A stretch of DNA of 22,389 nt from a virus: the IMG/VR virus record IMGVR_UViG_3300049460_000204, positions 1 through 22,389 of that record; one strand, given 5' to 3'. A program made the position numbers and the translations under genes. A model generated the notes under the pieces. It was given only the letters and a program-made list of their open reading frames with translations, made no database searches and was not told the DNA's origin. Positions 14,913 through 22,389 of the stretch are shown here, piece after piece; the first letter of the stretch is position 1, and every line of letters starts with the position of its first letter.

Positions 14913-15134
14913 AGTGCTGCATCCGCTGCCCCGATAGCCTACGACAGGGTTAGTGGGCTCGCAACACGTCATACGGCGTCTCCAGACGTCACTGGCTGCG
15001 TCAAACGGCATAATTCGACACAGGGTAGCTGAGTTATGTTCAATCGATCTGGTGACTGTTGCATTACAGCAATTCAGGGTCGCGTAGCCTCATCCAGTAG
15101 ACTCTGCTGCGAATTTTAAAAGGAGGTTGTGGGC

Positions 15135-16310
15135 ATGATAGGCGACTATAAGATAACGGACCTAACAAACCTCGGATTTTCATCGGTTGAAGTTGAAGGT
15201 TCGTCTTTTCACATGCAGGATCTACACGAGATGATTGGACGCACAGGCTACATGACTAGCTTTCAGTTCCGATCAGCGAGCGGCACCAGTCTGATCTATG
15301 GGCAAGTTATTACCGGGACACTCTTCAACAGCTTCAACACCCTAAACTTCCTGGAAGGTGCAGAGCCTTCCACATCACTGCCCGATCTATCGATCCTCAG
15401 GATTGACTCTCCAGATCGCTTCCTAAGCATTGAGCAGAAGAAATCACTGAAGTATCAAGGCGTTTCGATAAATGACTTGGAGAAGATTTCGTATTTTTCT
15501 TACTCCCGAGCTATCGAGCGACACGCGTCAGGTGAGAAAAAGATACCGAACGTTGTGGAAATCGAGGCTGACTTCTCTGACATTGATGAAAGCAATTTAC
15601 TTATCAACTACCTCGTCGCAAAGAATAACTCAGGTTGCGAGTTAGTTCACTTCGAAAAAGAGGAACTGATTGGAACATTGCTCGGAAAGCACGGTTGCAT
15701 TGATAGGCGTCTCCTGGAACATCTTCGTCTTACCCTCGAAGATGTGAAAATTAACATTAACATAGGACTGGCGCGCCTAAAGGCGAAATCAAAACACCAT
15801 CACTTAACTGAAGACGATGAAAAAGAGAAAGTCGACTTGTTATTCATTAAACGAGCTGAAACAATAATGGCGGTCGCAGCGGAGATGGAGAAGGCAAAGT
15901 TATCAAAAACAATGCTCCCCACTGTCGAGGAAGCCTTAAGGGCAATTGTAAAGTCTGCCAATGAGTTTAGACCGGGAATTCTCTTGCACGGGAAGAAACA
16001 AATTTTTTGGGACCTCAGGTCTTATCTGCACATTGCAATGCGCCACCTCAGCGACTTCCAACTTGGAAAATTCGAAGAAAAAACTGTCCTACCGTACAGA
16101 CCGAAAGATCTTAGCGCCTTAATAGAAAAGGTGTTAAGCCGGATTGCGGATGAAATTGAGCTGCACTTCAAAACAGAAAAATCCCCGTTCAGACGAAGGG
16201 GCGGAATGGCTGTTTTCTTTAATGGCGATTACTTCAGTCTCATAATTGATAGCGATGGTCGAATTGAACAATTCCACTCATTAGGCAAACAACATCGCAA
16301 GGCCAGTTAA
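15135..16310 (+). CDS. unknown AT-rich cargo protein, 391 residues
   Basis: ATG at 15135 lies 8 bases after AGGAGG; GTG at 15129 is too close to it. The protein (MIGDYKITDLTNLGFSSVEV...) has a strand-rich N-terminal half and a helical C-terminal half. Around 191-260 there is a helix pair ending in LARLKAKSKHHHLTEDDEKEKVDLLFIKRAETIMAVAAEMEKAK, then FRPGILLHGKKQIFWDLRSYLHIAMRHLSDFQLGKF near 278-313 and a helix, basic turn (FRRRGG) and short beta ending near 360-380. No signal peptide, transmembrane segment or catalytic motif stands out, and I recognise no family. It is notably richer in AAA, AAT and ATT codons than the phage structural genes, which suggests a separate origin. Its place among non-structural cargo suggests an accessory role. 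Confidence 0.75.
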   Translation: MIGDYKITDLTNLGFSSVEVEGSSFHMQDLHEMIGRTGYMTSFQFRSASGTSLIYGQVITGTLFNSFNTLNFLEGAEPSTSLPDLSILRIDSPDRFLSIEQKKSLKYQGVSINDLEKISYFSYSRAIERHASGEKKIPNVVEIEADFSDIDESNLLINYLVAKNNSGCELVHFEKEELIGTLLGKHGCIDRRLLEHLRLTLEDVKININIGLARLKAKSKHHHLTEDDEKEKVDLLFIKRAETIMAVAAEMEKAKLSKTMLPTVEEALRAIVKSANEFRPGILLHGKKQIFWDLRSYLHIAMRHLSDFQLGKFEEKTVLPYRPKDLSALIEKVLSRIADEIELHFKTEKSPFRRRGGMAVFFNGDYFSLIIDSDGRIEQFHSLGKQHRKAS

Positions 16311-16511
16311 CATTACAGACTGACCAAGAACGGAAATCGCCAATGGATTAAGACTACTTGGACCGTAGTATTGGTCTTCTTGAGTTTTTACTCGGCACTA
16401 TTCAAGCTTGGTTTGAAGATTAGGTAGTAGCTGTCTCACAGAAGACTGGCATCATGCAATTCTAGCTCGCGTGAATTAACAGCATAGCCTACTCACCCAC
16501 CACTAAACTGT
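16311..16511. other. convergent intergenic gap
   Basis: The 201 bases between the stops of two convergent genes contain no open frame of note. AAGACTAC and a partly complementary GTAGT...GGTCTT segment near 16350-16378 could form a weak hairpin followed by a T-rich stretch, but pairing is interrupted, so I do not call a terminator. Confidence 0.4.
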
Positions 16512-17420
16512 TTACTTCTTTTTTTGTTCCTCAGCAACCATCTTAGCCATCTTTTTTCTAAAGTCGCTTGCCAGCATCTCATAGGCGGATTTTTCAATCT
16601 GCCCAAATTCTTCTCCTATGATCTTCGTTCCATCAACGATCTGCGAAATGCGAGGCTTAGGCAATTTATCCAGTATTGTACCGAGGATTTCGCAGTCCCC
16701 TCCTCCATTACGCGTTATGTAGAAGAACTCCCTCGTTTTAAAATTAAGATTAAATGAAACAGTTCGACACACCGTGGTGGTCTCTTGAGGGACTGCATCA
16801 ATACTGTCTTCGTCCCAACGTGAGATCTTGAGGTACTCGGTGCCATGTTCGATCACTTGATAACTCTGCGGCCACGAGTCTTTGTTTAGAACTGCAATAC
16901 TAATCTGGTCGAACTCGCAATAGTTCGCCTGTCTCCAACATCTCAATTTAACATGGTTGATTGGCAGATAAATCTTATCGTCCAGAATTTTCATCGTTCC
17001 TTGGACAAAGGCAGAATCATTGCTCTTCCGTGACGAGAATTCAGCAGAAAAAAGAATCCGCGAGAGCTTCTGCATACTTGAACGTTGTCCAAGGCTGTCG
17101 ATTTGCGAAACGGTAAGGAGACCAGAAGGGGCATCCCCAAGATCAATTTGAAATGCTTTGACAGCCGCCTTATAGTCACCCATCCCAGGATACATTAGTT
17201 GATTAAGCTGCATCGCGAATAGAACCTCCGATCCCTTTGTGAGTCCCAGTTCTGCAGCAAATTGAAAATTAGCAGGTAGGTCGTTTTGGAGGATCTTCTC
17301 GGGCAGGCTTTTTATTTGATCAGGAGTGTAGTTTCGATACTTCTTGACAGCCTTCTCGTCCGCAAACGCAGAGAATTGAAAAATGAAATTGAATAATAGA
17401 AATGCGATAACTCGATTCAT
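16512..17420 (-). CDS. secreted protein with peptidoglycan-binding-like segment
   Basis: The product has 302 residues. MNRVIAFLLFNFIFQFSAFA is a signal peptide with a probable cleavage after AFA (residue 20). Residues about 82-112 (DYKAAVKAFQIDLGDAPSGLLTVSQIDSL) resemble the peptidoglycan-binding domain pattern 'A-V-K-x-F-Q-x-x-x-G-x-x-x-x-G-x-L-T-x-x-x-x-x-x-L'. The rest, with cysteines near 163, 170, 220 and 246, is predicted beta-rich and unassigned; the C-terminus is a lysine-rich helix (FRKKMAKMVAEEQKKK). It may act in the periplasm or cell wall as a moron product. GGAGA lies 9 bases before ATG at 17420. The gene is AT-rich compared with the structural operon. Its start overlaps the end of a short hydrophobic frame. 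Confidence 0.72.
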   Translation of the reverse strand: MNRVIAFLLFNFIFQFSAFADEKAVKKYRNYTPDQIKSLPEKILQNDLPANFQFAAELGLTKGSEVLFAMQLNQLMYPGMGDYKAAVKAFQIDLGDAPSGLLTVSQIDSLGQRSSMQKLSRILFSAEFSSRKSNDSAFVQGTMKILDDKIYLPINHVKLRCWRQANYCEFDQISIAVLNKDSWPQSYQVIEHGTEYLKISRWDEDSIDAVPQETTTVCRTVSFNLNFKTREFFYITRNGGGDCEILGTILDKLPKPRISQIVDGTKIIGEEFGQIEKSAYEMLASDFRKKMAKMVAEEQKKK

Positions 17421-17488
17421 TTTTTCAATTCTCCAATGTCGACGTAAACTGTCAGAACCTGTAAAAAGATTACGAGCAGCGTACTCAT
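17417..17488 (-). CDS. possible 23-residue hydrophobic leader peptide
   Basis: ATG at 17488 opens a 23-codon frame (MSTLLVIFLQVLTVYVDIGE, then LKK) whose TGA overlaps the ATG of the 302-residue secreted protein as ATGA. A G-rich run (GGGGGG) ends 7 bases upstream and may serve as ribosome-binding site. The peptide is a single transmembrane-length hydrophobic segment with no charged residue before position 17. It may couple translation of the secreted gene or sense membrane state. The same frame is open upstream to a TTG at 17617, so a longer 66-residue membrane protein cannot be excluded. Confidence 0.4.
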   Translation of the reverse strand: MSTLLVIFLQVLTVYVDIGELKK

Positions 17489-17519
17489 CTTACGCCCCCC
17501 GAACGCAAAGGACCTTACC

Positions 17520-17548
17520 ATTCTGCTACCGACCAGTATTGCAGTCAA
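17520..17548 (-). promoter_or_regulatory. candidate sigma-70 promoter for leader and secreted protein
   Basis: On the minus strand, TTGACT (17548-17543) is followed by a 17-base spacer and CAGAAT (17525-17520), five of six and four of six matches to the consensus hexamers. It would start transcription near 17513, about 25 bases before the hydrophobic leader ORF and 93 bases before the secreted protein. This was read by eye only. Confidence 0.45.
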
Positions 17549-17613
17549 GAAAAGTCGATAAAATCCCCAAAAAGACCATGGCCTTTGCCTCTTTTTTGAT
17601 AGCGCAAACTGAG

Positions 17614-17720
17614 TCAACGCATGTGCAGCGGGTTCTCAGCCACTATCTGCAAGCGTTCAAGTGTAGTGAAAGCCATTGCGCCGTAACCCAGCGCCCTTGC
17701 CTCCTTGATTTTTCCGGGAA
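17614..17720 (-). pseudogene. decayed duplicate of the 3' end of the 135-residue gene
   Basis: These 107 bases align without gaps to 18078-18184, the 3' end of the 135-residue gene, with 89 identities by hand count. Translated in the matching frame it reads PGKIKEARALGYGAMAFTTL, then ERLQIVAENPLHMR and TGA, against PGKVKEAIALGYGAMAFTTP then ERLQILGENPQHMK. In frame just upstream of the match is a TGA, and no start is available, so only a 36-codon remnant survives. Substitutions preserve the reading frame, which suggests that it diverged while still coding or arrived from a related element, and was then truncated. Confidence 0.8.
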
Positions 17721-17735
17721 GTCATGCTATTCGTG

Positions 17736-18077: not shown

Positions 18078-18485
18078 TCATTTCATGTGCTGCGGATTCT
18101 CACCAAGTATCTGCAATCGTTCAGGTGTAGTGAAAGCCATTGCGCCATAACCCAATGCGATTGCTTCCTTGACTTTGCCGGGAACTACATCCCAGGTGCA
18201 GGCCGTACTGACCAGCAAAAGTCGTTCATCTAACTGCTGGACTGTATGCTCAGTCACAAATGCTCGTGCTTGATCGCGCATACGCTCATCTGCCACATAG
18301 GTGAAGTTACCGGTCAGGGCATTCTTTTTACCGGGTACCAAAAGGATAAAGAAGCCCAGATCGTTTGGCTTGAATGGTAAGGCCTTTAGGTCTTCGTCAT
18401 TGCATAGCATTGCAGTTGGTGGAGGATTACTGATTAGTAGATCACGGATTTTTTGTGCTTCTTCGAATACGCTGAAATGGAGCAT
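18078..18485 (-). CDS. hypothetical 135-residue protein
   Basis: The product begins MLHFSVFEEAQKIRDLLISN and contains PFKPNDLGFFILLVPGKKNALTGNFTYVADERMRDQARAFVTEHTVQQLDERLLLVSTACTWDVVPGKVKEAIALGYGAMAF. The alternating strands and helices suggest a compact alpha/beta cytoplasmic protein; there is no signal or transmembrane segment. I do not recognise a family. The last 36 codons occur a second time as a decayed copy 464 bases downstream. GAGG lies about 11 bases before ATG at 18485. No terminator is visible between it and the small membrane-protein gene 88 bases downstream, so they may be co-transcribed. Confidence 0.7.
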   Translation of the reverse strand: MLHFSVFEEAQKIRDLLISNPPPTAMLCNDEDLKALPFKPNDLGFFILLVPGKKNALTGNFTYVADERMRDQARAFVTEHTVQQLDERLLLVSTACTWDVVPGKVKEAIALGYGAMAFTTPERLQILGENPQHMK

Positions 18486-18611: not shown

Positions 18612-19112
18612 TTATTTAATTGCGTCTATCTTGATTGTGTCGAACGTCAGTGCGAACATCGTTGCATCGGTTTCATTCTTAAATGCGCGTGGGTACTGTG
18701 CATCAAACTGCCAGACATCGCAATGTGGCAGCGTAGGTGAGTCGCAATGCTCGTGACACCATTCTTCGTGCATCTGGTAATCAGTGCTGCTGGCTGCGCG
18801 GAAATACAGATAGCCTTGCTCTTGAAGCTTGGGCATGATCTTCTCCTTGTAGCTGGCGAATCTGTCGATTTGCGCCGCCTTTATTGCCATGTGCATCTTC
18901 GCCGTGTGCATCTTCGCCGTGTATTGCTGCATCGCCTGATTATAAGCCTGCTGCTGAGCCGCATTGCTGATCTGTATCTGGGTAAGCGGAGACATCGCGA
19001 TAGTTGGTTCAACCAACAAGTCTGATGGTTTAGGTTTGCGTTTTAATCGAGTAGGCTGCAATGCGCCGTTGAGTAGATGTTTGAGTTGCTTGATAAGGGT
19101 GATGGTTGTCAT
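18612..19112 (-). CDS. chimeric 166-residue accessory protein sharing a virion-protein segment
   Basis: The N-terminal 40 residues are basic (TRLKRKPKPS). Residues 45-66 (TQIQISNAAQQQAYNQAMQQ) closely match residues 404-425 of the ejection-type protein (QAIQNSNAAQQQSYAQAMQQ). A perfect tandem 15-base repeat then gives TAKMHTAKMH, followed by a distinct C-terminal domain with a cysteine/histidine cluster (HEEWCHEHCDSPTLPHCDVW, about 115-134) that could bind metal. I recognise no family. The layout suggests a gene assembled by recombination: a virion-protein helix grafted to another domain. AAGGAG lies 6-11 bases before ATG at 19112. A dedicated terminator follows. Confidence 0.7.
   Translation of the reverse strand: MTTITLIKQLKHLLNGALQPTRLKRKPKPSDLLVEPTIAMSPLTQIQISNAAQQQAYNQAMQQYTAKMHTAKMHMAIKAAQIDRFASYKEKIMPKLQEQGYLYFRAASSTDYQMHEEWCHEHCDSPTLPHCDVWQFDAQYPRAFKNETDATMFALTFDTIKIDAIK
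18891..18920. repeat. perfect 15-base tandem duplication inside a gene
   Basis: The unit GTGCATCTTCGCCGT occurs twice in direct succession (18891-18905 and 18906-18920) and adds one extra five-residue unit in frame to the 166-residue protein. It abuts the segment shared with the virion protein, so it may mark slippage or recombination at the junction. Confidence 0.85.
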
Positions 19113-19572: not shown

Positions 19573-20034
19573 TTAGGCTGCTGGTGCCGCTTCAGTTTTC
19601 GGCTTCTTGGGCTCCCGTGCGCTATCTCGGAAGGCCTTATCCAACTCGCCGGTTTCACTTGCTGCCCTGGCAGCTTCAATCAGATTTATAGCCGCAACTG
19701 CATTTGGTACTTTGAAGTAAACAGCTCCATTCAATTCCATGGAGCGGTTGCCGTTGCGGAAATTGATCAAGTAGCCGTCTGGAAGCTTGCGGAAGAACTT
19801 GGCAGTGTCAGCAGAAGCTTTAATCAGCTTGATTGCCTCATCGCAGTTTGCAGCGAACTTGGTACGCGCAGCCACGAGTGGGTCTTTTTTAGCCGCAACT
19901 TCCGACAGGTCAGTAATCGGAGTTGCAAGCGTGGTCAGTTGGTCGAGGAAGCTCAAAACCGCTTGCTCAATAACTGGCGCAGCTTGTTCGTTGATTGGGG
20001 TAGCTGGGTTGCTGGTTGCGCTTTTGGTTGCCAT
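19573..20034 (-). CDS. hypothetical Ala/Lys-rich protein, 153 residues
   Basis: I chose ATG at 20034 because GGAGA lies 9-13 bases upstream; ATG at 20040 is only three bases from it. The protein has a flexible Ala/Thr/Pro N-terminus, a helical region (VIEQAVLSFLDQLTTLATPITDLSEVAA), a small strand-rich central part with KLPDGYLINFRNGNRSMELNGAVYFKVPNAVAA and a Lys/Pro/Ala tail (REPKKPKTEAAPAA). It is soluble and I recognise no family. Its leader contains a palindrome (20059-20076) that may be an operator, and it ends in its own terminator. Confidence 0.7.
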   Translation of the reverse strand: MATKSATSNPATPINEQAAPVIEQAVLSFLDQLTTLATPITDLSEVAAKKDPLVAARTKFAANCDEAIKLIKASADTAKFFRKLPDGYLINFRNGNRSMELNGAVYFKVPNAVAAINLIEAARAASETGELDKAFRDSAREPKKPKTEAAPAA

Positions 20035-20058
20035 TTTCATGTTCTCCGTTAAGTTGCT

Positions 20059-20076
20059 GCGTTATCGCAGTAACGC
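20059..20076. repeat. palindrome in the leader of the 153-residue gene
   Basis: GCGTTA (20059-20064) and TAACGC (20071-20076) are exact complements around a 6-base centre; CTGCG...CGCAG forms an alternative, overlapping inverted repeat from 20057. It lies 25 bases upstream of the start, between the two divergent genes. Either a repressor site or a hairpin with two alternative pairings fits. Confidence 0.45.
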
Positions 20077-20144
20077 TATTAGGCATTCAGGTTTACGGCC
20101 CATCAAGCGAAGATTGACGAAGTGCCAACACACAACGAACCAGA

Positions 20145-20150
20145 TTGACA
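20145..20150 (+). promoter_or_regulatory. consensus -35 hexamer, candidate rightward promoter
   Basis: TTGACA matches the sigma-70 -35 consensus exactly, 91 bases before ATG at 20241. At 17 bases downstream the -10 is poor (CATCAA), so a promoter would need help from an activator. A TTAAATA element (20189-20195) similar to the late-gene motif, on the plus strand, lies between them. Confidence 0.3.
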
Positions 20151-20240
20151 GTTTTTTCGCGCTATTTCATCAAAATCGAGGGTTTCCGTTAAATAACCAT
20201 GTACGCGAGACATAAGGCTCGTTTAACTGGAGAATGGAAA

Positions 20241-20591
20241 ATGAAAGACAAGCTGAAAGCACGCAATCTGGACATCGTGATCACCAAGATCACTGCCAAG
20301 ACGGTTTACTATGACTTGGCAGGGAATGGACAATCTGAGAAATGGAAGATTCCAGCGGAGAGCAGCTTCGATACGACTGCGCTAGTCGTTGGCGAACGCT
20401 ATCATGTAATGACACGCGTAATCCGCAGCTTGCAGTGGGATCACATCGCCAAGAAGAAAATCATGAAGGATCGTTATGATTGGCGGTATGCGGAACGTCG
20501 TGCAGCGACTGCTAAGGTCACGGCAAAGGCCAAGCGTGACACGAGCAACGATTTGCTACTTGCAGACGATGGCTCGTTGTTTAGTTGGTGA
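20241..20591 (+). CDS. hypothetical basic protein, 116 residues
   Basis: ATG at 20241 has GGAGA 8 bases upstream; GTA-rich sequence before it lacks a site, so the in-frame ATG at 20199 is less likely. The product MKDKLKARNLDIVITKITAK... is strand-rich in its first 60 residues (TVYYDLAGNGQSEKWKIPAESSF, VVGERYHVMTRVIRS) and ends in a basic helix (YAERRAATAKVTAKAKRDTS). I do not recognise it. It is divergent from the 153-residue gene across a 206-base gap and convergent with the AlbA_2 gene. Size and charge would suit a small nucleic-acid-binding or host-interaction protein. Confidence 0.7.
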   Translation: MKDKLKARNLDIVITKITAKTVYYDLAGNGQSEKWKIPAESSFDTTALVVGERYHVMTRVIRSLQWDHIAKKKIMKDRYDWRYAERRAATAKVTAKAKRDTSNDLLLADDGSLFSW

Positions 20592-20720
20592 TCTGTAATG
20601 GCTCAGTTTCAAACTGACAGGGTATGTCAGCAATGGGGGCAGCTCCCGCCTGACCCAACCGTCCGGCACTAAACTAGGTGCGGCCAGATTGGGTACAATG
20701 AAGTTTATTTACTACGACTT

Positions 20721-21929
20721 TTAGTGCTTTCTGGGAGCAAAGGCACCAGACACTTCATCGAAGTCAAGGCAGCGCTCTGCACCAAATGCTTGCCACAATG
20801 TGTCCAGCAAAGGCCGAATAGCGCTATCGATGTCGATAGCATCAATGTCTTCGATCCATAAATCTGGTGGCACCAGGTGTGGTCGGTCCGCCGAAACTCG
20901 GCGGGAACGGTAAAAAGCGTCACCTATGCCGAGTTCGTATCCCTTGACATTGAGGATGGCGACACTCAAAACTGCAGGGCCGGCAAATCCCCATTTCTTC
21001 GCGGATGCTAAGAATTTCGTTATTGAATTGTGGAAGAACTTAGACATTTCCAGGGACCAGACGATGGATCTATCGACTCCTGGCGAAATCTCTCGGGTTT
21101 CTCCTCCAAGTTGCGCGCCTTCTAGTGCCCCATTTCGAAAGATGTGATTGTAGGCATAGTAACCATCATCTTGATTTCCACCGGGGTGAACAAGTAGACC
21201 ATCAAAGTTGAACGTGCGACTGCCGCCCCCCCAGTTCTGACCAAGAAATTCTGCAAAAGTCTTTGTGTAGATAGTCCTTAAATCAACGGTTTTTCGACCT
21301 GCCAAGCCTGCAATCGGAACGAGGTGCACCACCCATTGTGGTCCGGCGAGGAGCGGTGCCGTTGTCTCTTTATTTGCGATTAGCTGAACTCGGTCCGCAA
21401 TGAATCGACGTGCGAGCTCCGCAAGCGTAGCTGTACGATCAAATGCAGCGCGTAATTGATCGTAAGACATGTCTGTGATGTTCGTACCGTTGCGCATGAC
21501 GAATCGCCTATTGTTGTTAACGCGAATGGAGTGCGGGCCATCGAACGAGGCAGGCACGCGAACGACAAGCGCATAGCCTCCGGGGACGTCAATAGGCCGC
21601 ATCTTTAGCCCCTGGACCCTTGGCTCGATCGTTGCGTCTAGTATCTGAGCGATACGTCGTACAGCAGCGTCGGAAAGCTCGCCAACGATCGGTGAAATGG
21701 CACCAGCGCCTCCATCCTTTTCGTCAATGCCATAGACCAAATCCCCCCCGTCGGTGTTTGCTAAAGCAGCGACATCCTTACAAAGTTCATGCTTATCTTT
21801 ATCTGAATTGCCGGGGAGTTCTCGTTTAAATTCCAGCGTTGCGGATTCGGGGCATCCGTCTTCGCACAGCTTTACCAAATGACCGTTTTCTAGCTGATCC
21901 AGCGGTTGGAGTATCAAGTTGTGCTCCAT
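20721..21929 (-). CDS. AlbA_2 (Schlafen-type) putative DNA-binding domain protein
   Basis: The product has 402 residues. Residues 28-70 (ESATLEFKRELPG...KDVAALANTDGGDLVYGIDE) are the signature of the AlbA_2 fold (E-S-x-x-L-E-F-K ... D-V-x-A-x-A-N-T-x-G-G-x-L-x-x-G-I), and FVMRNGTNITDMSYDQL near 143-159 is the usual end of that domain. The remaining 240 residues are unassigned, with several aromatic-rich strands (EFLGQNWGGGSRTFNFDGLLVHPGG). The domain occurs in transcription factors, in Schlafen tRNases and in antiviral gene clusters. A single cargo gene of this class next to the putative prophage-host junction is a plausible defence or exclusion gene, but this copy is untested. ATG at 21929 has no clear Shine-Dalgarno. 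Confidence 0.8.
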   Translation of the reverse strand: MEHNLILQPLDQLENGHLVKLCEDGCPESATLEFKRELPGNSDKDKHELCKDVAALANTDGGDLVYGIDEKDGGAGAISPIVGELSDAAVRRIAQILDATIEPRVQGLKMRPIDVPGGYALVVRVPASFDGPHSIRVNNNRRFVMRNGTNITDMSYDQLRAAFDRTATLAELARRFIADRVQLIANKETTAPLLAGPQWVVHLVPIAGLAGRKTVDLRTIYTKTFAEFLGQNWGGGSRTFNFDGLLVHPGGNQDDGYYAYNHIFRNGALEGAQLGGETREISPGVDRSIVWSLEMSKFFHNSITKFLASAKKWGFAGPAVLSVAILNVKGYELGIGDAFYRSRRVSADRPHLVPPDLWIEDIDAIDIDSAIRPLLDTLWQAFGAERCLDFDEVSGAFAPRKH

Positions 21930-22006
21930 TTAGCGAGGGAAGTGGTTGACTAAAGATTTATTTCACGCTCAGCTCTTTATTTGCTGCGAGCGGCTGCTTG
22001 TGGCTG

Positions 22007-22035
22007 CATTTACAGAACTCTACCCTATTTGACAA
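22007..22035 (-). promoter_or_regulatory. weak candidate promoter for the AlbA_2 gene
   Basis: On the minus strand TTGTCA (22035-22030) is followed 17 bases later by TAAATG (22012-22007). The -10 match is poor. It would give a leader of about 70 bases before the start at 21929. Read by eye only. Confidence 0.3.
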
Positions 22036-22076
22036 CTCGTGTCAGATTAAGGCTGAAGGTAATCCGTATAAAATGC

Positions 22077-22112
22077 AAAAGCCCCAAGCGCCGAAACAAG
22101 CTTGGGGCTTTT
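22077..22112. terminator. strong bidirectional terminator at the element boundary
   Basis: A perfect 13-base stem, AAAAGCCCCAAGC (22077-22089) and GCTTGGGGCTTTT (22100-22112), with a 10-base loop, has runs of A on the left and T on the right. It would stop leftward transcription of the CBS gene before it reaches the AlbA_2 gene's promoter region. Confidence 0.9.
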
Positions 22113-22235: not shown

Positions 22236-22389
22236 CTACAGGCTTTCCTCTGAGTAACTTGCTACCCCGAGTATTTGTGATGTCGACGAGATGATCGGCA
22301 GGTGCCGGAACTTATGCCGCTGCATGATCAGCACGGCGTCCGAGACGGTGGTCTCAGGCGAGATGAAACGCGGGTTGTGGGTCATGATG
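22236..22389 (-). CDS. CBS-domain protein, fragment running off the right edge, apparently truncated
   Basis: The frame enters from the right edge and reads IMTHNPRFISPETTVSDAVL, then IMQRHKFRHLPII, the first half of a CBS domain (I-M-T-x-x-P-x-x-I-x-P-x-x-T-V-x-x-A-x-x-x-M...R-H-L-P-V). It then passes into SSTSQILGVASYSEESL and stops at TAG (22236-22238). A complete CBS pair would need at least 60 more residues after this point. Base use changes from GC-rich to AT-rich codons after the second ATC of HLPII, which suggests that the true 3' part was replaced. CBS domains bind adenosyl ligands and regulate host enzymes. I infer a host gene interrupted by the element. Confidence 0.65.
   Translation of the reverse strand, partial: IMTHNPRFISPETTVSDAVLIMQRHKFRHLPIISSTSQILGVASYSEESL

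Follow-up and report, generated by a model that had tools for sequence, protein, structure and literature searches.

SLFN11 loses its nuclease activity when E209, E214 or K216 is mutated, but not when D252A is introduced (PMC9482658), and the corresponding three acids matter in SLFN13 (PMC5862951). Bacterial Schlafens have been reported as anti-phage defence in a 2025 preprint (bioRxiv 10.1101/2025.07.24.666596) that is cited in PMC12839542; the latter article mentions Schlafen RNases adjoining BREX as well. In P2-like prophages, antiviral genes occupy hotspots (PMC9122126). Here we describe a prophage gene whose product carries a domain of the Schlafen type. The window, i.e., the whole stretch of DNA that was analysed, comprises 22,389 nucleotides (positions 1 to 22,389 of IMG/VR virus record IMGVR_UViG_3300049460_000204). 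The gene and its parts are:

20721-21929, minus strand: SLFN_AlbA_2-domain gene of 402 codons (398 if read from the TTG at 21917)
21468-21848, minus strand: AlbA_2/Schlafen-core domain, residues 28-154, with Pfam, HMM and fold matches
21825-21848, minus strand: putative catalytic signature E28-x4-E33-x-K35, with a third acid, E70, further on
20724-21422, minus strand: residues 170-402, forming a C-terminal domain that is kept across the family and matches no named family

According to the original prediction, which was made from the letters of the window, a 402-residue AlbA_2 protein is encoded at the edge of a prophage, next to host-like sequence. The open reading frame was confirmed on the minus strand, which the prediction had left unstated, and Pfam SLFN_AlbA_2 (PF04326) matched residues 28-154 with an E-value of 6.4e-16 and 59.4 bits (cutoff 25.3), covering profile positions 1-117 of 118. 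Neither did any NCBIfam family match the full protein nor did PADLOC give a match for it. The closest relative, a protein of 73% identity, is encoded by Betaproteobacteria bacterium SCN2 (L002). Since codon positions 1, 2 and 3 of the two genes are identical at 79, 87 and 43%, respectively, strong purifying selection acts on the protein. Its true start may be the TTG at codon 5 (21917), because GGAG is located six bases upstream, the SCN2 relative possesses a TTG at the matching position (there without an obvious GGAG), and residues 1-4 of the 402-codon product are disordered in the structural model (pLDDT <50).

The surroundings of the gene were compared with sister prophages, which had been picked through terminase relatives at 95% identity. 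The terminase relatives belong to podovirus-like phages, e.g., Rhodoferax phage P26218. The relevant landmarks are:

19573-20591: two conserved phage genes (155 aa, minus strand; 130 aa, plus strand), the inner border of the slot
20607-21935, no strand: variable cargo slot, where sister prophages diverge and hold other genes; empty in a distant relative; inner edge at ~20,606, outer edge inside the promoter region shared with L025
22017-22045, minus strand: sigma70-like promoter CTGACA-17-TAGAGT for the cargo gene
22077-22112, no strand: bidirectional terminator-like hairpin with a 13-bp stem, 5' of the cargo gene and kept in L025
22186-22267, no strand: phage end sequence common to L025, running through CTTGCTACCC at 22258-22267
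22236-22388, minus strand: truncated host CBS-domain ORF (Pfam CBS 1.4e-9), cut off within the domain

For L024, L025 and L027, the alignment to the window holds as far as 20,596-20,606, after which these sister prophages diverge. Both inner-border genes are present in all three and also in L047, L048 and L039. In place of the AlbA_2 gene, two genes (237 aa and 144 aa) are present in L025, and a lipoprotein-like gene of 96 aa in both L024 and L027. A 362-aa gene plus others were found in the more distant L039, while in a further distant pair, which has one end sequence in common, the slot is empty in L047 and occupied by a 194-aa gene in L048. The slot is thus a site of high gene turnover between conserved phage sequences. 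Past its own cargo, L025 rejoins the window and shares with it the promoter region, the 13-bp-stem terminator and the phage end; the alignment of the promoter stretch reached a score of 79, compared to a maximum of 43 in 300 shuffles. Beyond ~22,267 the host flanks differ, the window continuing with the CBS-domain gene and L025 with a LysR-type gene (identified by eye). A DNA search with the CBS flank returned only short, partial matches. Homology to the CBS domain ends near residue 40-44, at ~22,263-22,268, and thus coincides with the phage end. A 30-kb IMG/VR record (L003, corresponding to L015 and L016) matches the window at 99.99% over 7.7 kb and has the identical end base. Because L025 shares promoter, terminator and phage end with the window and the host DNA differs only beyond them, sequence comparison assigns the cargo gene to the prophage itself, where it occupies a small variable slot approximately 340 bases from the prophage end. 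The predicted position at the prophage edge was hence borne out, and so was the host-like sequence following the gene, which is represented by the CBS-domain ORF.

The other slot genes mostly lack a Pfam family; among their products are the 96-aa lipoprotein-like protein, one that resembles LRAT/NlpC and others without a name. Six of these proteins were subjected to PADLOC and gave no match, so that it would be premature to speak of a defence hotspot. With its conserved promoter and terminator and its swapped genes, the slot is a practical place to search for further accessory genes in this phage group.

Some further observations were made on the ends and on the remainder of the window. The sister prophages sit in different host genes, which encode a CBS-domain protein in the window, a LysR-type protein in L025 and a crystallin-like protein in L024, and the end sequence common to L047 and L048 differs from that of the window. 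No integrase was noticed among the ORFs of the window or of the first 9 kb of L015, and no terminal repeats were found between both ends of the 30-kb sister record (L015/L016). A second variable stretch (15093-17735), across which the sister prophages fail to align, harbors a 393-aa ORF on the plus strand and a 302-aa ORF on the minus strand without Pfam or PHROG match; L025:5746-6456 reads histidine kinase-like by eye. The variable early region also contains a 101-bp direct repeat of 85% identity (17620-17720 and 18084-18184). Another stretch of 58 bp, which codes for a Q-rich peptide, occurs twice on the same strand with 86% identity (835-892 and ~18920-18977) and is thereby common to a virion structural protein gene (575-2110) and a 166-aa ORF (18612-19112). 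Within the phage structural region, a PAPS-reductase-type gene (3-575) and an acyltransferase-type gene (2431-2919) were seen.

As to expression of the cargo gene, the promoter search of the stretch yielded one candidate, whereas 1.9 would be expected by chance. For this reason the promoter is a weak argument by itself, and the stronger one is its conservation in L025, where the promoter region is kept ahead of a different gene. A TGACA-n5-TGTCA inverted repeat (22029-22044) overlaps the -35 region of the promoter and recurs in L025 with a single mismatch. An operator is conceivable here, although arms so short are common by chance. The gene had moreover been predicted to be bounded by a terminator with a 13-base stem. 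The hairpin itself is real, with -22 kcal/mol on either strand and z values of -4.0 and -4.6. Its location, however, is upstream (5') of the gene, where it would block transcription coming from the host side. This position led us to reject the idea that the hairpin terminates the gene itself at its 3' side.

The relationship of the N-terminal domain to Schlafen nucleases was studied by profile searches and by structure prediction. An HMM of the family, run against PDB sequences, matched CbCash (9ylu) with 5e-16, followed by SLFN14, SLFN8/13, SLFN11 and SLFN5 with 2e-7 to 2e-5. A whole-protein AlphaFold2 model was built from a ten-sequence alignment (pLDDT 83, pTM 0.63). VIA-align superimposed this model on the catalytic lobes of SLFN14 (Z 12.3), SLFN11 (Z 11.6) and SLFN13 (Z 11.5), with an rmsd of 2.7-2.8 over 122-125 residues, and on the SAMD9 tRNase domain (Z 10.9 over 169-173 residues). 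E28, E33 and K35 are equivalent to E209, E214 and K216 of SLFN11 at identical spacing, and this spacing is also that of the residues needed in SLFN13. Of the 24 family sequences with an intact N-terminus (that of the window among them), all have E28 and K35, and all have E or D at position 33. E70 takes the place of the third acid in the profile alignment, and position 70 is E or D in 21 of 25 family sequences. The E-x-K motif is general in AlbA_2 proteins and is thus to be regarded as a necessary condition for a Schlafen RNase and not as a proof. The window protein contains a single AlbA_2 stretch, its second half showing no AlbA_2 match, and hence lacks the two-lobed core. To imitate that core of the animal proteins, a single lobe would have to form a homodimer. 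Following AlbA_2, neither an HATPase_c_4 nor a winged-helix domain was detected, nor was there any other Pfam match with E-values up to 1.

The C-terminal part had been predicted to match nothing, which proved correct: Pfam failed to recognise the domain in any of ten family members, and PDB sequences gave no significant match to residues 170-402. The structure prediction that had been proposed for these residues yielded a confident model (pLDDT 84, pTM 0.86 when modelled alone), and no known fold was significantly similar. Foldseek returned nothing below E 0.18. The best VIA-align hit was human AdoMetDC (Z 7.2, 118 residues aligned), and TBP-like proteins came out with Z near 5; scores of this size do not stand out from chance. 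Across the family, P205, G244, G267 and an acidic residue at position 270 are invariant in this domain. A lone 240-aa ORF (L021:1388-2110, minus strand) matches the C-terminal domain only. It adjoins a recR-like gene, has no AlbA_2 part beside it, and is either the remains of a longer gene or a case in which the domain is used by itself. The original prediction had furthermore seen the effector in the C-terminal half. The reverse is probably true, as the signature E28/E33/K35 resides in the N-terminal half: the sequences make it more likely that AlbA_2 is the effector and that the C-terminal domain is the sensing, regulatory or oligomerising part. A C-terminal effector is less probable.

Full-length relatives of 22-33% identity were found on plasmids of Proteobacteria and of a haloarchaeon, on chromosomes and in unrelated prophages. 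As a search of 50,697 GenBank phage records did not reveal a related protein, the family is unseen in deposited phage genomes at that sensitivity. When genomes from the class to which L002 belongs were sampled, 2 of 369 possessed a full-length member; for its phylum the count was 8 of 398, with L002 included in both. The relatives are rare and patchy and reside on prophages and plasmids. Their prophage neighbours were read by eye from the sequence. In the L057 prophage the family gene lies antiparallel inside the tail module together with a small lipoprotein gene, in L050 it is located in another tail module, in L049 it adjoins the integrase, and in L054 and L055 it is found upstream of a putative small terminase gene. 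On plasmids and chromosomes, the neighbours identified within a few kilobases of some relatives are Gabija, type I restriction-modification together with an Abi-family gene and RelBE, a Tn7-like transposition module, integrases or the PADLOC candidate PDC-S06. The member on the Rhizobium tropici plasmid pRtrCIAT899a (L006:8007-9189) is situated downstream of Gabija genes. It is annotated as two overlapping ORFs, one for AlbA_2 and one for the C-terminal part, which reflects a frameshift or a natural split. Other members have no neighbours of these kinds; among them is the chromosomal copy of L002, which is surrounded by ordinary genes and has neither defence nor phage genes next to it. The evidence from defence neighbourhoods is a count of examples, in which Gabija, restriction-modification, Abi or PDC-S06 genes lie near some relatives of a gene that itself occupies a variable slot and recurs in other prophages.

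In our opinion the gene is best read as one for a Schlafen-type RNase with which the prophage brings about superinfection exclusion, for which we estimate a probability of about 55%. The supposed role as a defence gene thereby gained support through the variable slot, the occurrence as cargo in unrelated prophages and the defence genes beside some relatives. This reading is supported by the signature, the fold and profile matches, the swapped slot, the recurrence in prophages, the defence neighbours, the rarity of the family and the precedent of bacterial Schlafens. It is opposed by the lack of PADLOC matches for the slot genes and for the protein itself, the generality of the motif, the single lobe and the lone L002 copy. 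The cargo (moron) gene would be expressed in the lysogen from its own promoter. Its AlbA_2 domain, with a putative metal-binding and catalytic site of E28/E33 plus K35, would be an RNase, probably working as a homodimer, with tRNA or some other structured RNA as its substrate. The RNase might be kept off by the conserved C-terminal domain and be switched on by it upon infection by another phage. Translation would then be halted and the competing phage would fail, which amounts to a superinfection exclusion of the abortive-infection type. The prophage would gain a protected host.

Other functions have to be weighed against superinfection exclusion. The gene might be a moron conferring another benefit, be it as a toxin/addiction module, as a host-fitness gene or in counter-defence against host systems. 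The remaining slot genes (lipoprotein-like, LRAT/NlpC-like, unnamed), none of which gave a defence match, and the L002 copy without defence neighbours would fit such a role. Yet the slot does not contain an antitoxin-like partner, and Gabija, type I restriction-modification and Abi genes accompany some relatives. We regard this explanation as unlikely. We consider it slightly less probable that AlbA_2 binds DNA or RNA and regulates prophage or host genes without cutting. The family has long been described as a putative DNA-binding domain (PMC6299218, PMC5445408), but HATPase_c_4 and winged-helix domains were not detected here, the residues essential in SLFN11 are retained in all 24 sequences with an intact N-terminus (E or D at position 33), and, unlike a core regulator, the gene is exchangeable cargo that not all sister phages have. 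A nuclease-dead or decayed passenger without function in the prophage is very improbable: decay does occur in the family, as seen in the split Rhizobium plasmid copy and the lone C-terminal ORF in L021, but the ORF of the window is intact, under purifying selection and equipped with every invariant residue, and its promoter region is kept with L025. A location of the gene in host DNA, outside the prophage, is hardly credible and was rejected. In its favour, phage-core homology to the sister prophages ends at ~20,606, before the gene; but L025 and the window have the promoter, the terminator and the phage end on the far side of the gene in common, the CBS homology ends there and host DNA starts only after ~22,267.

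Because defence by bacterial Schlafens has already been reported, only the C-terminal domain and the recurrent use of a single gene by prophages are possibly new. We tentatively suggest that the unnamed C-terminal part might be a new phage-sensing or activating domain, and that AlbA_2 joined to it might constitute a distinct single-gene mobile family of Schlafen-type RNases, which extends across Proteobacteria and further bacteria to haloarchaea and serves unrelated temperate phages time and again in excluding competitors; at present this is possible rather than probable. If superinfection exclusion by such an RNase is true, temperate phages have repeatedly acquired a Schlafen-type RNase encoded by a single gene and turned it against other phages.

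Compared with known systems, the locus resembles the hotspots of P2-like prophages (PMC9122126) in that a small locus with high gene turnover lies beside conserved phage genes. It differs in that the window's phage group is podovirus-like and that the slot adjoins the prophage end and has no validated defence gene yet. CbCash (PDB 9ylu, 9ylv, 9ylx), on which a literature search revealed no paper, is the closest PDB sequence, matched over AlbA_2 by the family profile; it is a protein of 297 aa, and the match leaves out the C-terminal domain of the window protein. With the bacterial anti-phage Schlafens, as described in PMC12839542, the window protein shares a presumed SLFN/AlbA_2 RNase effector joined to another domain and a mobile or defence context. 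The minimal histidine kinase and wHTH mentioned there for BREX-linked Schlafens are absent from it. SLFN11, SLFN13 and SLFN14 of animals are similar in the fold of the catalytic lobe and in the E-x4-E-x-K site; they possess two lobes in a chain, whereas the window protein has one, no helicase or linker domains and another C-terminal domain. The tRNase domain of SAMD9/SAMD9L is likewise a single domain of the AlbA_2 type with an E-x-K motif (E196/K198), matching the predicted structure over ~170 residues, while the SIR2, STAND NTPase, TPR and OB domains of the SAMD9 family have no counterpart in the 402-aa protein. If true, our reading would tie the antiviral Schlafen and SAMD9 nucleases of animals to a bacterial counterpart that is compact and has another regulatory domain.
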